A DNA stretch of 64,000 nt from Luteitalea pratensis (GTDB lineage Bacteria > Acidobacteriota > Vicinamibacteria > Vicinamibacterales > Vicinamibacteraceae). The notes beneath the pieces were generated by a model. That model saw only the letters and a program-made list of their open reading frames with translations, did not search any database and was not told the DNA's origin. This document shows, one piece after another, positions 43,601-56,396 of this stretch. The translations under genes and the position numbers were made by a program. How positions within the stretch are numbered: position 1 is the first letter of the stretch; each line of letters opens with the position of its first letter. The DNA lies in assembly GCF_001618865.1 (NCBI RefSeq), contig NZ_CP015136.1, positions 1,089,001 to 1,153,000 of the forward strand, written 5' to 3'.

Positions 43601-43690
43601 CGGGCCGTGCCGGCCATCCCATGTATCTCGCCTCGACCTGTTGACACGCCACAGGGGCACGCTAGACTCGTGTGGAGGAGCCACAGGAAC

Positions 43691-51812: not shown

Positions 51813-51919
51813 CGGATACCTCCAGTGCTCACGCGCCGGGCATCGAACCGGATGCCGTAAAGGATGATGCTGGTTTGCCCGGGCGAGGGAGTGGGCAAAC
51901 ATACCACGGATGAGGTTGT

Positions 51920-53192
51920 GCCGAAAGCGCGGATGAGGCGAATGCTCGTCAAGGCGAGCAGCATGCCAAGGAGTCCCGAGACAGCGGCGAGCACGAGGCT
52001 CCCGGTGAGCAGCTGTCGCACGATCCGTCCAGCACTTGCCCCAACCGCTGCGCGAAGGGCCATCTCGCGCGCGCGGGCGCTGCTGCGCGCCAGCGAGAGG
52101 CTCGTGACGTTGGCAGCGGCGATCAGGAACACCAGGAACACGGCGCCGCCGAGCATCCACAGCGCCAACCGCGACTGTCGTCCCACCATGTACTGGCTCA
52201 CGGGGACGACGGTGATGCCACGGCTCCTCTCGGTGGCCGGCCGCTGATCGTCGAGATGGCGCGACAGTGCGCTCATCTCCGCCTGGGCCTGCTCGAACGT
52301 TGCGGTCGGCCGAAGTCTTCCGATGACGAACCAGGTCTGTCCGCCGCGCGTGCTGGGGTGCGTCGGATGCGGTTCCCACACGTCCGCGTCGAACCTCGCA
52401 ACCTGGAAGTCAGCGGGGAGGACGCCGATGATCTGCGATGGCATGCCGTTGAGCACGAGCGTGGCGCCGAGCGCTTTGGACGAGCCTCCGAATCGTGCCC
52501 GCCAGAAGCGATGACTGATCAGGACCAGTCGCTGCCGTTGCTCGGCTTCTTCGATCGAGAAGCTGCGCCCCAGGACGGGCTGGACACCGAGCAGTGGAAG
52601 CAGGTTGGGGGGAGATACTCGCGCCGACGATCTGCTCGACCCCTTCATCTCCACTCAGCAGGGTGGAGACGGAATCGAAGGTGGCCATGTCCGCGAAACT
52701 CTCACTTCGACTGCGCCACTGCTGGACATCCCACAGGGCCGATCGACCCTCGCGAAGGTTCTGCGCCGGATCCTCGGTCCACAACGTCGCCAACTGGTCG
52801 GGCGACCGATACGGAAGCGGCCGGAGCAGCACCGCGTCGAGCACGCTGAACATGGCGGTGTTCGTGCCAATCGCCAACGCCAGCGTGGCCACCGATGCGG
52901 TCGTGAACGCCGGACTCCTGCGGAGGCTGCGAAGTCCCTGGCGCACGTCACGCGCCAGACCCTCCAGCCACATGAATGACTGGACCTCCCGATACACCTC
53001 TTTCGCCTGCGTCGTGCCGCCGAAACTGCGGTGCGCGGCCCGGCGCGCCGTCTCAGGGGAAAGGCCGTGCCGGACGTACTCCTCCGTGGCTTCGGCCAGG
53101 TGGCTGGCGATCTCGTCGTCGATCTCGCGATCCACCTGCCTGGACCACACGAGGGCCCGTAGCCGGAACAGGAAGACGCGCAGGCGCGTCAT
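51920..53192 (-). pseudogene. ADOP-family permease, copy 3, frameshifted and truncated
   Basis: The start at 53192 (MTRLRVFLFRLRALVWSRQ) overlaps the PadR stop as ATGA. The first frame runs through DDEIASHLAEATEEYV, the first helix and part of the periplasmic domain to 'GVEQIVGAS'. The rest ('SPPNLLPLLGVQPVLGRSFS' onward) is in another frame. Removing one C from the six-C run at 52604-52609 restores 'GASISPNLLPLLGVQP', so slippage or an assembly error explains the shift. The gene stops after the middle helices (MLLALTSIRLIRAFG at 51920). The whole second half, about 400 residues, is absent. The truncation makes it non-functional in any case. Confidence 0.82.
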
Positions 53193-53536
53193 GGGGTGTC
53201 CTCGGAGATCTTCAGGAAGCGTTCGACAATGCTCGCCGCACGCTGCCACTGCGCCTCTTCCTTGTCGAGTTGCTTGCGACCGGTGCGCGTGAGTGCGTAG
53301 ATCTTCACGCGACGGCCGCTCTCGGATGTACCCCATTTGGACGAGATCCAGCCCATCTGCTCCAGCTTGAGCAGGGCGGGGTACAACGTGCCCTGATTGA
53401 GTGCGATCTGATTGCCGCTGATCTGCTCGACGCGTCGCGCGATGCGATACCCATGTAACGGGCCCAGGGCCTCCAGGATCTTGATGATCATCAAGCCGAG
53501 GGTGCCGTAGAGGACGTCACTCCGGTCGGGTGTCAT
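53189..53536 (-). CDS. PadR family transcriptional repressor at the copy 3/4 permease locus
   Basis: 115 residues: MTPDRSDVLYGTLGLMIIKI begins the winged helix, followed by LGPLHGYRIARRVEQISGNQ, NQGTLYPALLKLEQMGWI and the wing SESGRRVKIYALTRTGRKQL. It is co-transcribed with the broken ADOP 3 (ATGA overlap) and divergent from the intact ADOP 4. The long inverted repeat between them is a likely operator. With its own permease broken, ADOP 4 could be its remaining target. Confidence 0.9.
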   Translation of the reverse strand: MTPDRSDVLYGTLGLMIIKILEALGPLHGYRIARRVEQISGNQIALNQGTLYPALLKLEQMGWISSKWGTSESGRRVKIYALTRTGRKQLDKEEAQWQRAASIVERFLKISEDTP

Positions 53537-53631
53537 GTGTTGGGAGCCTACATCTCGAGCTGTTGGCAGTCAACTGGTCCAGCGTTCGCTCGAAACCGGC
53601 TGCCGGCCCGGACTGGTCGGCGGAGCTGTTT

Positions 53632-53687
53632 CTCCTGTTGTTTTCCAAAATGAAGCCGTGTACTCTCATTTTGGAATACAACAGGAG
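53632..53687. promoter_or_regulatory. 22-base inverted repeat before ADOP 4 (candidate PadR operator)
   Basis: The left arm is 53632-53653 and the right arm 53666-53687, with a 12-base spacer and a single mismatch. The inner part is TTTTCCAAAATGA facing TCATTTTGGAATA. The right arm ends in the ribosome site (AGGAG) of the ADOP gene. Within it TGTACTC and GAATACA also form a TGTA-N14-TACA pattern, as seen in PadR sites. Binding would cover both promoter and ribosome site. Confidence 0.6.
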
Positions 53688-53693
53688 CCTGAG

Positions 53694-56396
53694 ATGACAT
53701 CTCTCCGGCGATTCATGAAGCGCCTGGCCGCGTCGGCGCTCGGACGACGAGACGACGAGCGCATGCGGGAGGAGTTGGCCGAGCACCTGGAGATGCTCGT
53801 GCAGGAACAACTCCGCACGGGACTGCCACTCGACGAGGCGCGTCGCAGGGCGAGGCTCAAGCTGGGCGGGCCGGACGCGCTTGCCGAGGCGTACCGGGAC
53901 GAGCAGCGCCTGGGCTGGTTGGAGAATCTCGGCAAGGACCTCCGCTACGGGCTCCGGAGCGTGCGCCGCAATCCGGGGCTCAGTGCGGTGGCGATCGGGA
54001 CGCTCGCGCTCGGTATCGGCGCCAACCTCGCAATTTTCTCGCTCGTCAACGCAATGCTGATTCGGCCGCTGCCGTTCAGGGACGCTGAAGCGCTGGCACT
54101 GGTTCACCTGCTCATGCCGGAAGACGATGCACCTGGCGTCTACCGCCGGACAATCTGGTCGTACCCCAAGTACGAAGTCGTCCGTGCCGGCCAGCAGGTC
54201 TTCTCGGCGACCAGTCTGTTCACGGACACGGAATGGAGCCTGACGAAGGCCGGCGAGCCGGAGCGCATACAGGGCGAGGTCGTCGAGGCGGCGTATTTTC
54301 CGCTGCTCGGCATCGACGCCCGCCTTGGGCGGCTGTTCTCGGCTGATGACGATCGCGTCGGCGCGACGCCCGTGGCCGTCATCGGCCATGGCGTGTGGCA
54401 GCGCCGCTTTGGCAATGACCCGGGGGTGCTGGGGAAGGCCATCACCCTCGACGGCACCGTCCTGACCATCGTCGGCGTGACACCACAGGGATTTCGCGGC
54501 TTGTCCGGACGTGCCGAGGTGTGGCGGCCGCTGAAGCCGACCGTTCCCTTCGACCTCAACGAACCGTTCTCGCACAGCTACCACCTGATCGCGCGACGCC
54601 GGCCCGGCGTCTCACTCGAGCAGGTCGACACGGCGGTCCGGACGCTCGGCGCGCAGATTGACGCCACGTTTCCCGTGCCACGATCCGTGGGGAAGAGCGG
54701 CGTGGCTGCCGTGTCCCTCAACGATGAGCGCATCGATCCCTTGCTGCGGCGTGCAGCCCTCGTCCTTCTCGGCGCAGTGGGGCTCGTGCTGCTGATCGCG
54801 TGCGTGAATCTCGCCAATCTCACGCTCGTGCGCGGTCTCGCACGGCAGCGTGAGGTCGCGATTCGTCTCGCGCTCGGCGCCAGCCGCCTGCGCATCGGTC
54901 GCCAGTTCTTCATCGAGAGCCTGTTGCTGTCGGTGGCCGGCGCTGCGGCGGGCGCACTCGTCGCGACGCTTTCGATCCGGCTCGCATCCGCTGCCGTCCC
55001 AGACTTGAACGCCTGGCTGCATGGTCCGACCGGCGGCCTCATGCGCGTCGGCGCCTCGATGCTCGGCGTCGATACAACGGTGGCGGCCCTGGCTGTCGCG
55101 CTCGGTCTCGTCAGCGCCATGCTCTTCGGCATCGTGCCGGCATGGCAGGCAGCGCGCGGCGATCTGACGTCGCCGATGAAGCCTGTCGTCGGTGGCCATC
55201 ACGCGATGGGCTCGCGCGGCCAGGCGTTTCGCAACGGCCTGCTGGTCGCCGAGGTCGCCCTGGCGCTCGTCATGCTGGTGTCGGCCGGGCTGATGCTGAA
55301 GAGCCTGATCCGTTTGAACCAGACCGACCTCGGGTTCCGCCCCGATCACGTGCTGACCTTCCAGATTGCGCTGCCAGGCGACTCGTATCCGCCAGAGCGG
55401 AGCATCCCATTCATCGAACAGCTGCTGGCGAAACTGAAGGCGCGGCCCGAAGTGCAAGCGGTTGCGTTCGGCCATTGCGCGCCGGTCATGGATCGGTGCA
55501 ACGGGACGCGGGCGACCTTCCCCGATCGCGCCCCCGTGCCGGCCGGCAGCGGTCCACTCGTCGGCGTGACGTGGGTATCGCCAGGCGTCTTCGACGCGCT
55601 CGGCATCCGGCTCGTACGTGGCCGCGGGTTCACGGAACGCGATCGTCAGGGCCAGCCAAAGGTGGTGGTGATCAACGAGACGGCCGCGAAGCAACTGTGG
55701 GCCGGCGACGATCCGATCGGGAAGCGGATCAGTATCGGACAGGGCGGCTTTCGCGACGGAGCCGAGGTGATTGGCGTGGCCGCCGACGTCCGGTATCGTG
55801 CGGTGGAGACGCCACCTGGACCTGACGTCTACATCCCGGTGCTTCAATCACCGCGCCCGTTCGGCTTGATCTTCGTGCGCAGCCGGCTCCCTTCGTCCGC
55901 GCTCGTGCCGATGATTCGCCACGAGGTGGCTTCGCTCGATCGTGATCTGCCGCTCAGCGACATCAAGTCGATGGACGAACGATACGGCGAGGCGACGTGG
56001 CGGACGTGGGCGATTGGCGTGTTGCTGTCGATCTTCGCCGTGCTCGCCCTCGTCCTCGCGGTCGTCGGTGTCTTCGCGGTCCTGGCGCAGAGCGTCGCGC
56101 AGCGCACGCGCGAGATCGGCGTCCGCATGGCGCTGGGCGCAGCGCCGCACGACATCCAGCGACTGGTGCTGGGCCGTGCCGTGACGATCGCCGCCGTGGG
56201 TGTCGGCATCGGCCTGGGCGCCGCCTGGCTCTCGTCCCGGCTGCTGACGACGTTGCTGTACGAAGTCGAGCCACACGACGCAGGCGTGCTTTCGCTGGTC
56301 GCGCTGCTGCTCGTTGTCGTGACCATTGTCGCGAGTTACATACCGGCCTACCGTGCGGCGCGCGTCGATCCGCTCGAGACGGTGCGGGCCGAGTAA
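53694..56396 (+). CDS. ADOP-family permease, copy 4
   Basis: 900 residues from the ATG at 53694 with AGGAG upstream; the longer ORF enters the operator region. The N-terminus shows the 'ERMREELAEHLEMLVQEQLRTG' helix, then KDLRYGLRSVRRNPGLSAVA and helix 1. The first MacB-like periplasmic domain, LLIACVNLANLTLVRGLARQREVAIRLALGAS, the second domain and the terminal YIPAYRAARVDPLETVRAE are complete. No ATPase neighbour is present. The permease is divergent from PadR at 53189 and convergent with the lipoprotein-like gene at 56558. Confidence 0.93.
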   Translation: MTSLRRFMKRLAASALGRRDDERMREELAEHLEMLVQEQLRTGLPLDEARRRARLKLGGPDALAEAYRDEQRLGWLENLGKDLRYGLRSVRRNPGLSAVAIGTLALGIGANLAIFSLVNAMLIRPLPFRDAEALALVHLLMPEDDAPGVYRRTIWSYPKYEVVRAGQQVFSATSLFTDTEWSLTKAGEPERIQGEVVEAAYFPLLGIDARLGRLFSADDDRVGATPVAVIGHGVWQRRFGNDPGVLGKAITLDGTVLTIVGVTPQGFRGLSGRAEVWRPLKPTVPFDLNEPFSHSYHLIARRRPGVSLEQVDTAVRTLGAQIDATFPVPRSVGKSGVAAVSLNDERIDPLLRRAALVLLGAVGLVLLIACVNLANLTLVRGLARQREVAIRLALGASRLRIGRQFFIESLLLSVAGAAAGALVATLSIRLASAAVPDLNAWLHGPTGGLMRVGASMLGVDTTVAALAVALGLVSAMLFGIVPAWQAARGDLTSPMKPVVGGHHAMGSRGQAFRNGLLVAEVALALVMLVSAGLMLKSLIRLNQTDLGFRPDHVLTFQIALPGDSYPPERSIPFIEQLLAKLKARPEVQAVAFGHCAPVMDRCNGTRATFPDRAPVPAGSGPLVGVTWVSPGVFDALGIRLVRGRGFTERDRQGQPKVVVINETAAKQLWAGDDPIGKRISIGQGGFRDGAEVIGVAADVRYRAVETPPGPDVYIPVLQSPRPFGLIFVRSRLPSSALVPMIRHEVASLDRDLPLSDIKSMDERYGEATWRTWAIGVLLSIFAVLALVLAVVGVFAVLAQSVAQRTREIGVRMALGAAPHDIQRLVLGRAVTIAAVGVGIGLGAAWLSSRLLTTLLYEVEPHDAGVLSLVALLLVVVTIVASYIPAYRAARVDPLETVRAE

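Follow-up and report, generated by a model that had tools for sequence, protein, structure and literature searches.

The inverted repeat that separates a PadR-family regulator gene from a divergent ADOP permease gene in Luteitalea pratensis is very probably a PadR operator, as judged by comparing related elements across the phylum. Its main ligand is probably the product of a distant gene, PadR2. Taken as a whole, our reading, to which we assign a probability of about 0.5, is that PadRs of the TIGR03433 family in several Acidobacteriota lineages would share a two-dyad operator-promoter and a residue code, that ADOP genes lacking a PadR of their own would be wired in trans, and that the ADOP gene of the window (the whole 64,000-nt stretch of DNA that was analysed) would be a target of PadR2.

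An inverted repeat at the start of a divergent ADOP gene

TIGR03433 PadR regulators and TIGR03434 ADOPs (duplicated permeases; both are NCBIfam families) occur as gene pairs, and such pairs were seen in many of the loci examined here. The L. pratensis genome yielded 40 PadR matches and 103 MacB-core matches, most of the latter in ADOP-type permeases. In the window, the ADOP product (ADOP4) is full-length, scoring 837.2 bits against TIGR03434 (cut-off 622.3) over model positions 2-803, and the product of the gene adjoining the repeat, PadR1, scored 124.4 against TIGR03433 (padR_acidobact), above the curated cut-off of 101.8.

The repeat has exactly the geometry given by the sequence-only reading, with two 22-nt arms that are complementary at 21 of 22 positions across a 12-nt spacer (Table 1). 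That it exceeds chance also held, as uniform-base arithmetic predicts about 5e-6 repeats with at least 21/22 pairs and a spacer of at most 20 nt. An exhaustive scan returned it, in five overlapping registers, as the sole repeat in the whole window with 22-nt arms, at least 19/22 pairs and a spacer of at most 30 nt, and four windows simulated from first-order base transitions contained no comparable repeat. Its described location between a PadR gene and a divergent ADOP gene was confirmed, with the right arm covering the permease Shine-Dalgarno sequence AGGAG, 6 nt 5′ of the ATG at 53694. The repeat lies 96 nt before the PadR1 start codon; PadR1 being divergent, the site directly precedes the ADOP gene instead. 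The canonical PadR/LmrR motif ATGT-N8-10-ACAT is absent from 53632-53687, as read from the sequence. The exact 22-nt arm pattern gave 0 matches in viral contigs. Among 298 genomes, the exact core pattern was found in L. pratensis and once in G251, where it falls within a coding frame resembling a tail-collar protein by eye and was rejected as a chance match. A terminator-like hairpin is predicted just 5′ of the repeat, at window positions 53600-53623.

Table 1. Coordinates of the features in the window (positions count from the first base of the window).
Feature	Position	Strand	Remarks
ADOP (duplicated permease, TIGR03434)	53694..56396	+	900 aa; gene controlled in the proposed reading
PadR1 (TIGR03433 regulator)	53189..53536	-	adjoins the repeat; probably not the main ligand
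PadR1 own promoter, TTGACT-17-TAGGCT	53545..53573	-	unlike the repeat; kept before relatives in G029 and G075
ADOP after PadR1, disrupted	51900..53192	-	two frames; second half not found
Left arm	53632..53653	+	dyad 1 at ~53633-53653 with TTG-N5-CAA core; -35-like TTGTTT at 53638-53643
Spacer	53654..53665	+	-10-like TACTCT at 53661-53666, its last base being base 1 of the right arm
Right arm	53666..53687	+	dyad 2 at ~53666-53686; AGGAG at its end, 53683-53687
Predicted transcription start	~53672-53674	+	in the right arm; inferred
Whole operator-promoter (predicted)	53632..53687	+	R1 60.9 bits; R2 55.1 bits, top site in the genome
Weaker family member	43635..43689	+	directly before a PadR-ADOP pair, PadR from 43691

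A near-identical repeat precedes the distant PadR2 gene

With up to 3 mismatches, the arm occurs at two places in the 7,480,314-bp L. pratensis genome and at 0 places in a reversed-genome control; at either place it is present twice, forming an inverted repeat. The second copy (G000:C1:6234364-6234420) ends 8 nt before the GTG start codon of the PadR2 gene (G000:C1:6234429-6234770), 5.09 Mb from the window site along the sequence. The window and PadR2 arms are identical at 21/22 and 20/22 positions (41/44, ungapped), and because the spacers differ and the 100-nt flanks are unrelated (21% and 34% identical), it is the arms, not the neighbourhood, that are conserved. PadR2 scored 132 against TIGR03433 (cut-off 101.8) and shares 53% identity with PadR1 over the matched part. 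The element also sits immediately upstream of the start codons of its orthologs in G059 and G044 (90% and 89% identity), the G044 ortholog being followed by an ADOP gene. In L. pratensis, PadR2 has a divergent beta-lactamase-family protein on one side and a DUF2975 protein downstream (L045 2789-4381 and 4870-5397), and no ADOP gene was found on its strand within the stretch examined around it.

Related elements precede PadR and ADOP genes in several lineages

Model searches indicate that the repeat is a member of a family of control sites present in several lineages of the phylum, through which PadR proteins probably repress both their own genes and ADOP permease genes. We used two models: R1, a covariance model with arm pairs built on an alignment of 20 elements, most of them chosen by visual inspection upstream of PadR genes, and R2, which contains no own-genome sequences and neither of the PadR2 orthologs from G059 and G044, their sister lineage being included. 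In the L. pratensis genome, R1 detected only the window and PadR2 places (E up to 5). Across 60 genomes, 17 including L. pratensis had R1 sites (E up to 0.1), amounting to 31 distinct sites outside L. pratensis, 10 of which were already in the model. Among the 21 sites outside the model, 15 lie directly before a PadR gene and 1 before an ADOP gene (G006:C16:75344); another 2 precede genes judged ADOP-related by eye, namely an adaptor-like protein beside an ADOP (G010:C128) and an ADOP-like N-terminus that breaks off (G005:C11), and the neighbours of the other 3 are unclear (G006:C49, G044:C19:91910 and G006:C10; E 7e-7, 0.003 and 0.006). A scan of 149 genomes of the phylum (E up to 0.001) gave sites in 9, including L. 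pratensis. Seven genomes outside the class contributed 14 distinct sites, none of them in the model; 13 neighbourhoods were inspected (all except G320:C1:396743), of which 12 adjoin a PadR gene and one site precedes an ADOP gene alone. PadR1-like proteins were found in 52/60 genomes, yet 43/60 had no R1 site, a count that, like the 140 genomes without a site in the phylum scan, comes from scans whose filters lose weak matches.

R2 returned five distinct sites in the L. pratensis genome (E up to 5), all beside PadR or ADOP genes. The window site ranked first (2.2e-10), followed by PadR2 (3.4e-9), 43635-43689 of the window (0.005), 1184135 (0.07) and 145970 (4.2), the three weaker sites being located just before PadR genes by position. 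An ADOP gene with a site and no PadR directly before it was also found at G006:C30:14949 and G006:C16, with a weaker site at G006:C15, and in G279; the arrangement of the window therefore recurs. The G006:C30:14949 site shares 52/57 bases, by eye, with the site of a PadR gene 14.4 kb away. The sequence-only reading had suggested deriving a motif and scanning for it, and had counted a lack of related motifs upstream of other ADOP genes against itself. Since related motifs of the repeat family were found upstream of other PadR and ADOP genes, the sequence part of that objection falls away.

When the upstream regions of the own-genome PadR genes were compared by BLAST with those of 14 additional ADOP or ADOP-like permease genes that have no PadR in front, no shared operator was recognised beyond the PadR2/window pair; the best of the remaining pairs (L007/L244, L022/L232 and L035/L233), being short or repeat-like, were not taken as operators. 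Separately, different inverted repeats occur near the start codon at L011, L013, L014, L017, L020, L038, L039 and other own-genome PadR loci. They exceed the 95% level of shuffled regions, and each may represent a further operator type. The regions upstream of the own-genome PadRs L014, L016 and L026 contain recurring palindromes of the GTCGACCT/AGGTCGAC type, which look like an interspersed repeat.

A PadR residue varies together with an operator base

For comparisons of arms, dyads and residues, we took sites of at least 28 bits, each counted on a single strand and at a single locus, about a dozen coding-strand sites of 19-25 bits being left out; G006:C30:14949 was added to the arm and dyad comparisons but not to the residue comparison, and G006:C16 to the arm and dyad ones. 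The residue comparison excluded sites without a PadR, and at 2 further sites the PadR was not recovered. In the resulting 41 PadR-operator pairs, the second residue of the NxGTLYP-type segment of the protein was set against the fourth base of CCTxTTG in the operator: NY was accompanied by A in 18/18 pairs and NQ by G in 19/19, and 4/41 pairs had other residues. The rule has a Fisher p of 6e-11, computed on rows that are related and reflect few independent changes, since NY falls mostly in one clade of a quick tree. All 12 readable pairs of a held-out distant set fit the rule (4 NY, 8 NQ). Proteins of the NQGTIYA type are accompanied by CCTGTG in 4/6 rows. The rule holds for the weaker own-genome site preceding L040 (NQ with G); the PadRs at the other two weaker sites have other residues.

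By analogy with PadR structures in general, the NxGTLYP segment would be the recognition helix, and we propose a code in which x = Gln would read CCTGTTG and x = Tyr would read CCTATTG. Of the evidence gathered, this covariation speaks most strongly for binding of the element by PadR itself. It cannot separate PadR1 from PadR2, because both carry NQ; arm matches and orthologs count instead.

PadR2 is a likelier main ligand than the adjacent PadR1

The sequence-only reading had offered the adjacent PadR1 as the protein that binds the repeat. The idea of a PadR operator appears right in kind, very probably over the ADOP promoter, but PadR1 does not fit well as the main ligand. In this alternative, PadR1 would be a local divergent regulator of the ADOP gene, and perhaps of itself, through a single operator. 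PadR1 does adjoin the repeat and is a TIGR03433 PadR, it shares the NQGTLYP segment with PadR2 and could thus bind too, and a GTTG-N5-CAAC dyad in its own promoter resembles half of the repeat. A quick tree built from 122 PadR proteins also groups its six-row clade (support 87) with an operator-bearing clade, the two forming a 38-row group (support 88) in which the 31-row sister clade (support 98) has a strong R1 site directly upstream in 26/31 rows. In this tree, PadR1 was scored as lacking a site, because the window site had been recorded solely through its match on the plus strand; the match on the minus strand is the one 96 nt before the PadR1 start codon. Rows cut by contig ends (L121 and L137) were likewise scored as lacking one.

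Against PadR1 stand its own relatives. The repeat is absent before its 87% ortholog (G029), and the five other rows of its clade, from other genomes and including that ortholog, gave no R1 match on either strand (E up to 0.05) and, with R2, only one truncated match, in L155 (E ~1). What PadR1, the G029 ortholog and a close G075 relative have in common is instead a different promoter immediately upstream of the gene, which reads TTGACT-17-TAGGCT in the window. Furthermore, among the 46 sites compared, the PadR2 site is by far the best arm match to the window (41/44); the sites of its two orthologs tie at 35, and the others share at most 33/44 arm bases. We therefore regard PadR2 as a better candidate than PadR1, since the element is missing from the PadR1 relatives, the closest of which retain a different promoter, and since the arms best match the putative auto-operator of PadR2; direct control by PadR1 is rather unlikely. 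In G029 and G075, the PadR1 relatives have an ADOP reading frame behind them (cut by the locus end in G075). The ADOP gene after PadR1 itself is disrupted; PadR1 may be a regulator without its former target.

We also considered whether ADOP4 could derive from a PadR2 partner that has since been lost. Its closest ADOP relatives (52% and 47% identity) have different N-termini and a reading frame resembling a different PadR upstream, and the loci of the two gave no R2 match; the idea was not supported.

Two dyads surround a predicted promoter

The element consists of two dyads of the CCTRTTG-N5-CAAYAGG type, with centres usually 31-34 bp apart. In the family layout, a -35-like TTG lies in the left dyad, a -10-like box in the spacer and a Shine-Dalgarno sequence at the end of the right dyad. 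Dyad symmetry averaged 0.74 (left) and 0.77 (right) against 0.54 in shuffled controls, which covered the left-arm search range only. The clearest dyads are those of L169 (CCTGTTG-N5-CAACAGG twice, 8/8 pairs each), and those of the window have 6/8 and 6/8 pairs with centres 33 bp apart; this distance was 31-34.5 bp in 35/46 sites and 25-30, 35 or 39-43 bp in the other 11. A -10-like box matching at at least 4/6 positions was found 16-19 nt after the left-dyad TTG in 19/44 sites (2/46 having no TTG at the expected place), against 7.6% with shuffled spacers. The window boxes, TTGTTT-17-TACTCT, are weak, with 3/6 matches each, and a strict sigma-70 consensus scan found no promoter in the repeat, which counts against the promoter reading of the window when it is taken alone.

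Arm pairing was assessed on the R2 alignment, whose rows were mostly picked through R1 and which thus leans towards pairing. The paired cells (72.8%, against 27-44% in slid and 68.2% in shuffled alignments) and the cells changed on both sides (32, against 3-13 slid and a shuffled mean of 16.6) exceeded the controls. Pairs with changes on both sides (8, against 7.1 shuffled, with one slide reaching 9) and pair types (15, against 14.1 shuffled, with one slide reaching 17) are the two of five pairing measures that were no higher than in shuffles, and the R1 set gave a similar picture, the same two again failing to exceed their shuffles.

These features bear on whether the repeat acts as RNA, either as a hairpin that hides the Shine-Dalgarno sequence and so controls translation, which the sequence-only reading had also entertained, or as a terminator. 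The repeat folds well as RNA (-29.2 kcal/mol, z -9.4), and the failure of the strict scan to detect a promoter within it would agree with such a role; foldability of the arms, though, is a property of any strong DNA inverted repeat. The family-wide -10-like box in the spacer argues the other way, because transcription from it would start within the right arm; provided that the promoter has been placed correctly, the transcript would lack the left arm and hence the hairpin. Moreover, both arms have a dyad of their own, a hairpin would not require them to stay about three helical turns apart, and a protein residue varies together with the operator bases. A terminator is further disfavoured by the absence of a T-run after the repeat. 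We consider action as RNA highly improbable. It is just as doubtful that the repeat is the operator of a non-PadR regulator or a mobile palindromic (REP or MITE-like) repeat, since the two near-identical copies within one genome that would suit mobility have similarity that stops close to the arms and are the only strong copies genome-wide, most sites elsewhere precede PadR or ADOP genes, and the residue-base covariation is with PadR.

Proposed mechanism and relation to known PadR systems

We propose that one PadR dimer would bind each arm, an imperfect dyad of ~19-21 bp with a TTG-N5-CAA core. As the dyad centres in the window are about three helical turns apart, the two dimers would lie on one face of the DNA, bracketing the -10 box, with one over the -35 box and the other over the start point and the Shine-Dalgarno region. 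Bound PadR would block RNA polymerase, and its release, probably upon binding of a hydrophobic compound, would allow the permease to be produced; such relief by a small molecule would resemble that of LmrR (PMC4534193). The family operator usually stands directly before TIGR03433 PadR genes, which suggests auto-repression of the PadR-ADOP operon. The window permease would carry the operator without a PadR of its own in front, and PadR2 would repress both itself and this ADOP, in trans because the likeliest ligand, with nearly the same operator at its own gene, is encoded far away.

The kind of regulation is already known: operators at which PadR proteins act on their own genes have been described, as has the control of ABC transporters by PadRs (PMC4534193, PMC3506622). 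LmrR of Lactococcus lactis, a PadR-family protein, represses an ABC transporter and itself through the lmrR and lmrCD promoters, and two dimers have been proposed on its own promoter (PMC4534193). The system suggested here is alike in both respects, PadR-type repression of a transporter together with the regulator, and two dimers. It differs in the DNA motif, which for LmrR is given as ATGT/ACAT with ~8-10 nt between (PMC3506622) and here comprises CCTRTTG-N5-CAAYAGG-type dyads ~33 bp apart. It further differs in that the predicted promoter lies inside the dyad pair and the permease is an ADOP. bcPadR1 of Bacillus cereus also binds its own promoter region, but through a degenerate ATGT-N10-ATAA motif and with another target (PMC3506622). 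A search of the open-access literature, which left most subscription papers outside its scope, found no operator for TIGR03433/TIGR03434 pairs and no precedent for the motif, the two-dyad layout around the promoter, the residue rule or the trans-regulated permease.

The shared operator and the residue rule would allow PadRs to be assigned to permeases from sequence, even where the neighbouring PadR is not the regulator, and the operator family offers short DNA targets for binding tests. If the proposal is true, regulons would become readable from sequence through the operator copies that stand before PadR-less ADOP genes.
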